Shown here in pieces: positions 19,314-22,782 of a DNA stretch of 64,000 nt. Position numbers and translations under genes: made by a program. Origin of the DNA: Turneriella sp. GTDB lineage: Bacteria; Spirochaetota; Leptospiria; Turneriellales; Turneriellaceae. Numbering within the stretch: position 1 is the stretch's first letter; the number at the start of each line of letters is the position of its first letter. The stretch lies in assembly GCA_019186965.1 (NCBI GenBank), contig JABARV010000003.1, positions 124,001 through 188,000 on the forward strand, in the 5' to 3' direction. The notes below the pieces were generated by a model that did no database searches, was not told the origin of the DNA, and saw nothing but the letters and a program-made list of their open reading frames with translations.

Positions 19314-19325
19314 AATACTCCTTTG

Positions 19326-19396
19326 CAGGGCAGGAAGGAATCGAACCCTCATTAACGGTTTTGGAGACCGTCGTTCTACCGTTGAACTACTGCCCT
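19326..19396 (-). tRNA. tRNA-Trp (CCA)
   Basis: 71-nt cloverleaf on the minus strand: acceptor AGGGCAG/CTGCCCT with discriminator G, anticodon loop CTCCAAA, and TTCGATT T-loop. The 3' CCA is not encoded. It lies 12 nt before secE, the tRNA-Trp/secE/nusG order found in many bacteria. Confidence 0.95.
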
Positions 19397-19442: not shown

Positions 19443-19514
19443 AGCCCACGACCGGAATCGAACCGGTGACCTTTTCCTTACCATGGAAACGCACTACCGA
19501 CTGTGCTACGTGGG
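19443..19514 (-). tRNA. tRNA-Thr (GGT)
   Basis: 72-nt cloverleaf on the minus strand: acceptor GCCCACG/CGTGGGC, anticodon loop ATGGTAA (anticodon GGT), T-loop TTCGATT. The discriminator base reads T, and CCA is not encoded. It is flanked on both sides by perfect hairpins. Confidence 0.93.
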
Positions 19515-19523
19515 CAAGTAATT

Positions 19524-19566: not shown

Positions 19567-19743
19567 GTTTGCACACAAGCGCACATCGTGTGCAGCGCAA
19601 GCCTAAGACATCCTGTCCTCAGTCTGCGGTTTGCGCAAAGACGCGCCTCGTGCGCGGCGCAAACCTCGGACATCCTGTCCTCAGTCTGCGGTTTGCGCAA
19701 AGACGCGCCTCGTGCGCGGCGCAAACCTCGGACATCCTGTCCT
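19567..19743. repeat. 62-bp tandem repeat, about 2.9 copies, downstream of tRNA-Ser(GCT)
   Basis: Copies start at 19567 (diverged), 19629 and 19691 (the last two nearly identical, the third ending early at the tRNA 3' end). Each unit contains an inverted repeat gtttgcgc...gcgcaaac around a GC-rich core and the word tgtcctcagtctgcgg. A near-identical word (tgtcctctgtctgcgg) flanks the 3' end of the second tRNA-Ser gene. The unit is not a multiple of three and I see no protein in it. Confidence 0.9.
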
Positions 19744-19744
19744 G

Positions 19745-19833
19745 CGGAGCAGGAGGGATTCGAACCCTCGGTACCAGTTACCTAGTACAACAGTTTAGCA
19801 AACTGCCGCTTTCGACCACTCAGCCACCGCTCC
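19745..19833 (-). tRNA. tRNA-Ser (GCT)
   Basis: 89-nt class II tRNA on the minus strand: acceptor GGAGCGG/CTGCTCC with discriminator G, anticodon loop TTGCTAA (GCT, reads AGC/AGU), long variable arm and TTCGAAT T-loop. CCA is not encoded. Its first 13 nt recur twice upstream within a 74-bp repeat. Confidence 0.95.
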
Positions 19834-19981
19834 TAATGTCGCGTGGCTTCGTGGCCCCACACCTCCGCTTCGCTACGGAGATGCAAGAGCATCACAGCCA
19901 CCGCTCCTAATGTCGCGTGGCTTCGTGGCCCCACACCTCCGCTTCGCTACGGAGATGCAAGAGCATCACAGCCACCGCTCC
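19821..19981. repeat. 74-bp tandem repeat carrying the tRNA-Ser 5' end
   Basis: Two full copies (19821-19894, 19895-19968) and a 13-bp partial copy (19969-19981). The beginning of each copy, cagccaccgctcc, is the complement of the first 13 nt of tRNA-Ser(GCT), so two extra tRNA 5' fragments lie upstream of the real gene. The remainder contains a small stem (ctccg...cggag). Confidence 0.92.
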
Positions 19982-20059
19982 ATACCAGAGGACAGATGAC
20001 GGAGAACAGAACACGTAAGATTGTCTCCGGTATTCTTTCTGTCCTCTGTCCTCTGTCTG

Positions 20060-20146
20060 CGGAGGAGGTAGGATTCGAACCCACGAGACCCGTGAAGGCC
20101 TAACGGTTTTCAAGACCGCCGCAATCGACCACTCTGCCACTCCTCC
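20060..20146 (-). tRNA. tRNA-Ser (TGA)
   Basis: 87-nt class II tRNA on the minus strand: acceptor GGAGGAG/CTCCTCC with discriminator G, anticodon loop CTTGAAA (TGA, reads UCN), variable arm and TTCGAAT T-loop. CCA is not encoded. Its 3' flank carries ctgtcctctgtcctctgtc, related to the 62-bp repeat beside the other tRNA-Ser. Confidence 0.95.
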
Positions 20147-20192: not shown

Positions 20193-20212
20193 AAAAAAAG
20201 ACCTGCCGGTCT
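20193..20212 (-). terminator. Short terminator-like hairpin in the tRNA-Ser(TGA) leader
   Basis: AGACC/GGTCT stem (plus 20199-20212) with loop GGCA, followed on the minus strand by seven T. It lies between the promoter at 20261-20290 and tRNA-Ser(TGA), so it would cut the transcript after roughly 55-60 nt unless read through. The stem is only 5 bp. Confidence 0.4.
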
Positions 20213-20260
20213 ATGCCACCAGTACTAAAAAATTAAACATCGCGTCAATGTGTAATCAGT

Positions 20261-21798: not shown

Positions 21799-22782
21799 AT
21801 GGCAGATTATCTTACCTTTTTGCCCGAAAAGGCGCCTAAGCGTAACCTATTAGTACAGATTTTTTTCGAGATTTTGTATATCGTACGCTACACCCTTCTT
21901 TACTTACCCGGATTATTATTACGCCCATCGGACATTACAGAAGGAGAAAAAAGGCCAGTTGTTCTTGTATCAGGCCTTTGGGGTTCGCCCCTAACGTGGA
22001 GTAGCGCACGCGCCGCTTTAGCCAAACAAGGCCATCCCGTATACGTTGTACGCCTTGGGTTCCAATGCGGAAATTTGCGCAAGTACAGTAAAAAGCTCCA
22101 AGAGTTTCTCGAAACACACGCCTTAAACGACTGTTATCTTGTTTGCCACTCAATGGGAGGCCTTGTTGCCGCACACATGGGGTACAAAGGACGCGACAGG
22201 GTACGAAAAATTTTTACATTAGGAACTCCGTTCCGTGGGCATTACCTCGCAATCCTTGTTCCCTTTACGTACGCAACGTTGCAGATGATTCCCTTTTCGC
22301 GTTTTATAAAAGAAACAAAAGAGAAATACCGCACTCTTACAAGCATACAAGCAGTCTTTGCTTCTTTTGACGAAATCCTCTTCTCAGATTATCTCAACAT
22401 CCCCGGACGCTTTGACGATGTAAAACTTAAACAAATCGGCCACTGCAATCTTTTCATGGGACCTTCGGGAATTGAATGTATCCAAGAACTCATTTTGGCA
22501 GAAGAAGCAAAGGACCCAAAGCCCGTACCTGTAAAAAAAGGCGCCGATTCCAACACAGAAAAAAAAATTCCTGACCCTACATTTAAGAAAAAAGCTCCTA
22601 AGAAAAAAGCTTATAAAAAGCCTGCTCCTAAAAAAAAGCCAAAAGCAGTAAAAAAAGCAGTAAAAAAAGCAGTAAAAAAAGCAGTAAAAAAAGCAGTAAA
22701 AAAAGCAGTAAAAAAAGCAGTAAAAAAAACAGTAAAAAAAACAGTAAAAAAGAAACCTCTACCTAAAAAATCACGCAGGTAG
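21799..22782 (+). CDS. Alpha/beta hydrolase (lipase-like) with lysine-rich repeat tail
   Basis: 327 aa. Residues 53-235 are an alpha/beta hydrolase core: LVSGLWGSPLTW oxyanion region, nucleophile Ser118 in CHSMGG, LGTPFRGH, and a likely catalytic His215. A hydrophobic stretch (about 18-42) may hold it at the membrane. From about residue 241 the protein is a basic Pro/Ala/Lys tail ending in nine four-residue AVKK/TVKK repeats, resembling tails of bacterial histone H1-like and polyanion-binding proteins. It probably hydrolyses lipid or polyester at a negatively charged surface. The 3' end overlaps purN by 12 bp. Confidence 0.8.
   Translation: MADYLTFLPEKAPKRNLLVQIFFEILYIVRYTLLYLPGLLLRPSDITEGEKRPVVLVSGLWGSPLTWSSARAALAKQGHPVYVVRLGFQCGNLRKYSKKLQEFLETHALNDCYLVCHSMGGLVAAHMGYKGRDRVRKIFTLGTPFRGHYLAILVPFTYATLQMIPFSRFIKETKEKYRTLTSIQAVFASFDEILFSDYLNIPGRFDDVKLKQIGHCNLFMGPSGIECIQELILAEEAKDPKPVPVKKGADSNTEKKIPDPTFKKKAPKKKAYKKPAPKKKPKAVKKAVKKAVKKAVKKAVKKAVKKAVKKTVKKTVKKKPLPKKSRR
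22645..22752 (+). repeat. 12-bp tandem repeat (9 copies) encoding AVKK/TVKK
   Basis: The unit gcagtaaaaaaa is repeated exactly seven times from 22645 to 22728, then twice with a leading a (22729-22752; the last copy ends in g). Each unit adds four residues without shifting frame. The A-run and identical copies make it prone to slippage. Confidence 0.97.

Follow-up and report, generated by a model that had tools for sequence, protein, structure and literature searches.

The window, by which we mean the whole analyzed stretch of 64 000 nt, carries on its minus strand a tRNA operon in the order tRNA-Ser(TGA), tRNA-Ser(GCT), tRNA-Thr(GGT) and tRNA-Trp(CCA), followed by nusG, rplK, rplA, rplJ, rplL and rpoB. 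NusG was assigned by Pfam, and the remaining protein genes were named by eye from their open frames. The features in the direction of reading are:

20248-20243, minus strand: promoter-like hexamer TTGACG upstream of the tRNA operon (read by eye, no program prediction)
20212-20193, minus strand: terminator-like hairpin AGACC..GGTCT with a T run, upstream of the tRNA operon (read by eye, no program prediction)
20059..20146, minus strand: tRNA-Ser(TGA), upstream operon gene (ARAGORN)
19982..20058, minus strand: remaining Ser-Ser spacer with a separate GACAGAGGACAG-type hairpin (by eye)
19969..19981, minus strand: distal copy of tRNA-Ser(GCT) nt 1-13, exact match to 19821-19833
19908..19968, minus strand: unit 1 remainder, 61 nt, hairpin-forming, identical to 19834-19894
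19895..19907, minus strand: proximal copy of tRNA-Ser(GCT) nt 1-13, exact match to 19821-19833
19834..19894, minus strand: unit 2 remainder, 61 nt, hairpin-forming, directly 5' of tRNA-Ser(GCT), homologous to the single unit of genome G008
19744..19833, minus strand: tRNA-Ser(GCT), intact (ARAGORN; Rfam tRNA 60.1 bits)
19567..19743, minus strand: 62-bp repeats, 2.9 copies, with hairpins, between tRNA-Ser(GCT) and tRNA-Thr (Tandem Repeats Finder and by eye)
19443-19515, minus strand: tRNA-Thr(GGT) (ARAGORN)
19325-19396, minus strand: tRNA-Trp(CCA) (ARAGORN)

Two identical 74-bp units (19834-19907 and 19908-19981, minus strand) abut tRNA-Ser(GCT), and Tandem Repeats Finder reports an array at 19821-19981 (period 74, 2.2 copies, 100% match, score 322). 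The sequence GGAGCGGTGGCTG, which is nt 1-13 of tRNA-Ser(GCT), occurs on the minus strand at 19969-19981, 19895-19907 and 19821-19833; the last of these sites is the 5' end of the gene itself, and both upstream copies are followed by the same 61-nt stretch. An earlier note on this DNA had stated that the first 13 nt of the tRNA are duplicated upstream and that each 74-bp unit opens with the tRNA 5' end, giving two extra fragments. ARAGORN, Tandem Repeats Finder and our reading of the minus strand confirm the duplication as exact, and both fragments are exact matches. With 100% identity over 161 nt, chance is excluded as an explanation of the array, which occupies a single locus in the whole 3.08-Mb genome. 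For the 74-nt unit the predicted folding energy is -37.2 kcal/mol (z -4.1; 0 of 200 shuffles); it contains a CTCCG..CGGAG stem, and the element CCGAAGACGGAG is absent from it. Rfam searches at the Ser locus and at ten sister loci returned intact tRNAs only, and the units scored as no tRNA. Hidden tRNAs, tRNA pseudogenes or known RNA families were considered as identities of the units and found no support in Rfam; sub-threshold matches at the Ser locus to plastid, microRNA and sRNA families were taken as chance.

Several observations concern the surroundings of the array. The 62-bp repeats at 19567-19743 bear GGACAGGATGTCC hairpins, the loop of which we take to resemble CsrA-binding sequences; similar units are present in the sister loci L019 and L020, and by eye no clear copy of a tRNA 3' end was seen in the repeats of the window. 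Upstream of the operon, terminator-like stems with other bases were noted in the sister loci L018, L019, L006 and L020. Since sister genomes thus keep a terminator-like hairpin with different stem bases, the region 20193-20248 suggests attenuation upstream of the tRNA-nusG-ribosomal operon. The D stem of tRNA-Thr(GGT) (19443-19515) reads GCAC/GTGC, compared to GCTC/GAGC in relatives. Elsewhere in the window, a 54-bp repeat (3.2 copies, 99% match) is located at 828-1002, and a 12-bp repeat (9.2 copies) at 22641-22751 encodes a lysine-rich KKAV tail of a predicted alpha/beta hydrolase.

We compared the same junction in related genomes. The genome belongs to a Turneriella-like spirochaete. By NusG the closest named relatives are Leptospiraceae/Spirochaetes bins, and the order containing the genome is presumably GTDB Turneriellales. 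tRNA-Ser(GCT) was recovered from 13 of the 18 order genomes searched, and exact copies of its nt 1-13 were observed upstream of the gene in 6 of these 13: two in our own genome, one in G008, two each in G017 and G016, two in G004 together with one copy with two mismatches, and two in G014 together with two copies with two mismatches (G002, with one weak 13-nt match with 3 mismatches, was left out of this count). Such copies are absent upstream of tRNA-Ser(GCT) in G010, G012, G007, G005, G003 and G015, where the matches listed correspond to the 5' end of the neighboring tRNA-Ser(TGA). In G010, G012 and G007 the operon is the same but lacks units, so that close relatives show an empty site, and in G012 (locus L020) a spacer resembling 19982..20058 was recognized by eye, again without any unit. 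Outside the 13-mer the G008 unit is homologous to our own (score 65.1 versus a maximum of 36.4 in 500 shuffles), with one hairpin swapped for another. The units of G004, G014, G016 and G017, compared by eye, have little in common with ours beyond the tRNA copy; in G016 and G017 such units also precede tRNA-Ser(TGA). The Ser-Ser spacer itself measures 45-488 nt in 13 of 13 genomes inside the order, compared to 0-14 nt in 18 of the 19 measurable genomes (20 fetched) of the class outside the order and 75 nt in the remaining one, and for this reason the long spacer of the order looks like a derived state.

The Ser array is one case of a lineage-wide class and not an isolated scar. We took the tRNA neighborhoods of seven genomes (our own, G007, G010, G008, G012, G004 and G005) and searched up to 400 nt upstream of each gene for its own 5' end, using an 11-nt query with at most one mismatch in direct or inverted orientation and masking other tRNAs. 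In the five genomes of the genus, 25 of 144 genes have such a copy (5 of 32 in our own genome and, among the tRNA matches listed, 7 of 30 genes surveyed out of 38 in G007, 5 of 28 out of 33 in G010, 3 of 25 out of 30 in G008 and 5 of 29 out of 33 in G012), although some of them may be chance or neighboring copies, e.g. G010 Gly(gcc) and G007 Arg(tct). The two other order genomes gave 1 of 27 (27 of 32 matches listed, G004) and 0 of 31 (31 of 37, G005). The same test was negative for all 44 tRNA genes from 20 genomes that belong to the class but not to the order and for all 126 tRNA genes (64 loci) from other phyla. As a further control we swapped the flanks among the genes of one genome and counted exact 10-nt matches, which gave means per genome of at most 0.8 for direct and at most 1.35 for inverted copies. 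The inverted counts of G010 and G008 (2 and 1) are close to their control values (1.35 and 0.7), and inverted copies are therefore convincing mainly where they are long, as in the 20 nt upstream of G008 tRNA-Thr, the 19 nt upstream of G010 tRNA-Thr and the 17 nt upstream of G007 tRNA-Arg(TCG). Units recur at the same isoacceptors, at Asn in 4 of the 5 genus genomes and at His and Ile2/Met(cat) in 3 each. Because the class is also present in G007, which consists of two contigs with 4.4 Mb and 38 tRNA matches, it is not only an artefact of metagenome assembly. G007 fits the isolate Turneriella parva DSM 21527, for which the genome report gives 4,409,302 bp, 2 scaffolds and 38 tRNA genes (PMC3746428).

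Many units follow a common plan. They open with nt 1-11 of the tRNA, go on with the short hairpin [A/T]CCGAAGACGGAG and another one that differs between species, and then repeat the D loop; the tRNA start in reverse complement and a short A-rich tail close the unit, after which the next unit or the intact tRNA begins. Many can thereby fold into a hairpin with the tRNA 5' end as one arm. In our own genome three units were counted at Val(GAC), two at Ile2/Met(CAT), two at His and one at Asn. A mirrored version made up of three 90-bp units lies 3' of tRNA-Asp. In the Ile2/Met(cat) unit the tRNA end, the D-loop copy and the complementary arm are kept in three species, while hairpin 2 changes. The complementary arm is near-complete in 21 of 37 distinct units (p<=0.01 compared to shuffles); 16 of the 37, including our own Ser unit (7/11, p=0.77), failed this test, so the hairpin rule is not universal and a fixed complementary arm in every unit is ruled out. 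Units longer than 170 nt (G007 Arg(tcg) and G012 Cys) were dropped from the folding and arm tests as distant chance matches. Of the 19 exact matches to the cassette CACCGAAGACGGAG in our own genome, 10 lie no more than 300 nt from a tRNA gene, where 0.11 would be expected, and on the level of clusters this holds for 6 of 13; the remaining copies are found in attC-like sites and other palindromes.

Some related loci were recorded as well. The attC-like sites with CACCGAAGACGGAG (L162-L167 and L179, G000 C1 301-329 kb and C14; L305, L306 and L308-L310 in G007) look by eye like a possible chromosomal integron. At tRNA-Arg(TCT), 193-bp repeats (L157 1-400, G000 C2; L159, C10 end) are nearly full-length copies of the tRNA that two inserts interrupt, the first in the D arm and the second in the T loop. 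Both contigs (C2 and C10) stop in the array, and the intact tRNA-Arg(TCT) is consequently missing from the assembly; the end of C10 carries what we take to be an Illumina adapter. In locus L213 (G010) the tRNA-Arg(TCT) gene has A3 opposite C70, a mismatch, and the upstream unit keeps the pairing G3.

For single tRNA genes we determined the position of the first copy relative to a TTGAC motif. In unit-bearing genes TTGAC and the first copy are 44-89 nt apart (Ile2/Met(cat) 47 and 68; Val(gac) 44, 76 and 89; Asn 45, 45, 65 and 56; Arg(acg) 62), and in orthologues without units TTGAC precedes the tRNA by 35-77 nt (Ile2/Met 62, 76, 47 and 35; Val 54, 42 and 40; Asn 42, 41 and 38; Arg(ACG) 44, 43, 67, 77 and 47), where the cat genes, up to three per genome, share one label and unit-less genomes are represented by the nearest value, one cat gene per genome being chosen by eye for Ile2/Met. 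TTGAC was not found at G012 Ile2/Met(cat) and G005 Arg(ACG), and His and Arg(TCT), which sit inside clusters, are uninformative on this distance. Judged by this spacing, the first copy appears to stand at the former tRNA start wherever TTGAC was seen. As the units lie between promoter and tRNA, the arrays should be transcribed together with the tRNA, which we infer from the operon position and from the TTGAC distances at the sister loci.

The earlier note had also proposed that the leader fragments compete for the 3' half of the tRNA, and had suggested folding the precursor from 20254, just upstream of TTGACG, to 19745, at the 3' end of tRNA-Ser(GCT). As an equilibrium prediction for unmodified, protein-free RNA without tertiary structure (growing prefixes were folded by minimum energy), this competition is borne out: the mean probability of the native acceptor helix of tRNA-Ser(GCT) is 0.67 for the tRNA alone versus 0.01 with two units, and the distal copy is predicted to take the 3' strand of the tRNA with P 0.99. 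Holding units and tRNA apart would cost 6.8 kcal/mol. With shuffled unit remainders our own precursor gave a mean of 0.19, and 60% of the shuffles were equal to or better than the real remainder, from which it follows that the predicted competition is due mainly to the copied 13-mer and not to the rest of the unit. We compared 23 precursors in this way. The real remainder surpassed at least 95% of shuffles in protecting the native helix in six of them (our own Ile2/Met and Asn, G007 Ile2/Met, G010 Val, G012 Val and G017 Ser), while in the other 17 the real units did not surpass 95% of the shuffled ones, and many real units abolish native acceptor pairing at equilibrium. A protective fold, by which real units would shield the tRNA better than shuffled ones, was accordingly rejected as a general property.

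These folds bear on the question whether the leader is functional, in the sense that three elements compete, namely the copy of the tRNA end, the complement of that copy and the genuine 5' end, and the array sets the share of precursor that is correctly folded and cut by RNase P. The six protected precursors, the predicted capture of the 3' strand by the distal copy in the window, the complementary arm in 21 of 37 units and the recurrence of units at the same isoacceptors (Asn, His and Ile2/Met(cat)) in several species are consistent with such a function, but the 17 unprotected precursors, the frequent predicted loss of native pairing and the lack of units at Ile2/Met(cat) in G008 and G010, which makes them dispensable there, speak against it, and we consider it improbable. 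We give similarly little credence to its most specific form, a cis-acting folding switch before certain tRNA genes in which tandem 5'-end mimics and complements would compete in the nascent transcript and tune the RNase P maturation of that tRNA. Some role of the units in tRNA maturation is possible. A scar left by an integrative element (phage or island) with its attachment site in the tRNA gene, as the earlier note had envisaged, is very unlikely. A short direct repeat at a tRNA gene and an empty site in relatives would fit an integration; however, the copied end is the 5' and not the 3' end, no integrase adjoins the array (Pfam assigned the five flanking frames to Aldedh, hydrolase, Formyl_trans_N, epimerase and NusG), and the same plan is found at several tRNAs, the units of other genera being unrelated. 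No match turned up in searches of phages, plasmids and viral contigs. The note itself had held that unrelated units before the same tRNA in relatives would point away from integration, and the relatives indeed combine the same 13-nt copies with largely unrelated units.

A mobile palindromic cassette could insert in the D arm (near nt 12/13), or at the mirrored place in the T arm, and regenerate the tRNA end, tandem copies then arising by recombination. For this speak CCGAAGACGGAG and a variable hairpin at the same D-arm place in the Ile2/Met, Val, His, Asn and Arg units, the mirrored arrangement in the three 90-bp units after tRNA-Asp, the location of 10 of 19 own-genome cassettes near tRNA genes, the further copies in attC-like and other palindromes and two Y1_Tnp open frames in our own genome (in the family, 6 of 13 genomes gave Y1_Tnp matches). 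Yet the Ser unit has the CTCCG..CGGAG stem only, without CCGAAGACGGAG, none of five examined Y1_Tnp loci has a cassette nearby, G012 (82% complete) contains 21 cassettes and no Y1_Tnp match, and an arm complementary to the end of each particular tRNA cannot stem from a fixed element; we therefore regard such a cassette as a rather unlikely origin. Mobilization of the REP/RAYT kind is unsupported, with a single-locus array and no cassette at the five Y1_Tnp loci. In our view the array probably arose by tandem duplication in place, from the 5' boundary of the tRNA onward and with hairpin cassettes aboard, as one case of the order-wide class. The common ancestor with G008 would have acquired, in front of the tRNA, a segment consisting of the first 13 nt of the tRNA and a hairpin cassette, and the unit would then have doubled in our own genome. 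Units of this class consist of nt 1-11/13 of the tRNA, hairpins, in many cases the tRNA end in reverse complement, and a short A-rich tail, and are located in presumably transcribed leaders; they probably come and go through slippage and template switching where hairpins form. They are probably tolerated because the intact tRNA is last in the array, the units self-fold and RNase P could still cut the true 5' end. Slippage that includes the gene boundary had been offered by the earlier note as the other origin, and the repeats do straddle the gene start; simple slippage, however, leaves the shared cassette [AT]CCGAAGACGGAG at different tRNAs and the inverted 5'-end copies at sister loci unexplained. 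A purely neutral reading predicts no conserved plan, and the Ile2/Met(cat) plan kept in three species counts against it. Against duplication counts that, compared by eye, the bases before the copy and before the tRNA agree over 8-9 nt only at our own His, G010 His, G008 Asn and G012 Arg(acg), and over 0-4 nt in most other arrays.

As a rule, the leader of a tRNA gene contains no copies of the gene that could compete with it. With its recurrent self-complementary copies of the tRNA 5' end in such leaders, this lineage offers a natural test of how tRNA folding and the choice of the RNase P site cope with decoys, and of how tandem repeats arise from hairpins. A further lesson is that a short direct repeat at a tRNA gene is not necessarily an integration scar. 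In the open-licence papers searched we found no report of 5'-end tRNA repeats in bacteria, which is a weak negative. Among known systems, REP/BIME elements with RAYT (Y1_Tnp) are alike in being dispersed intergenic hairpin cassettes, and Y1_Tnp genes are present in some of the genomes, but here the Ser unit is restricted to a single locus, the examined Y1_Tnp genes have no cassette and the arms follow the local tRNA. According to one study, some attenuator candidates resemble the rtT transcript of the tyrT operon and belong to BIMEs (PMC2965389). attL/attR scars share the direct repeat of a part of a tRNA gene, whereas here the 5' end is repeated, without recombinase or element and recurrently with unrelated units. 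The tandem repeats of E. coli tyrT/tyrV (rttR/tpr) were reportedly described by Bosl and Kersten in 1991. We checked tyrT of MG1655 and found a period of 178 with 3.1 copies and exact copies of the 19-nt tRNA 3' end, with no 5'-end copy beyond the two genes. Both kinds of array consist of tandem units, each with an exact fragment of the adjacent tRNA; in E. coli this is the 3' end and lies downstream, whereas in the Turneriella-type arrays it is the 5' end (nt 1-13 at Ser) and lies upstream; a complementary arm is frequently present, and the arrangement recurs at several tRNA genes. The tyrT/tyrV array of E. coli, with its repeated 3' end, is the nearest known kind, and the present arrays are best read as its 5'-end equivalent.
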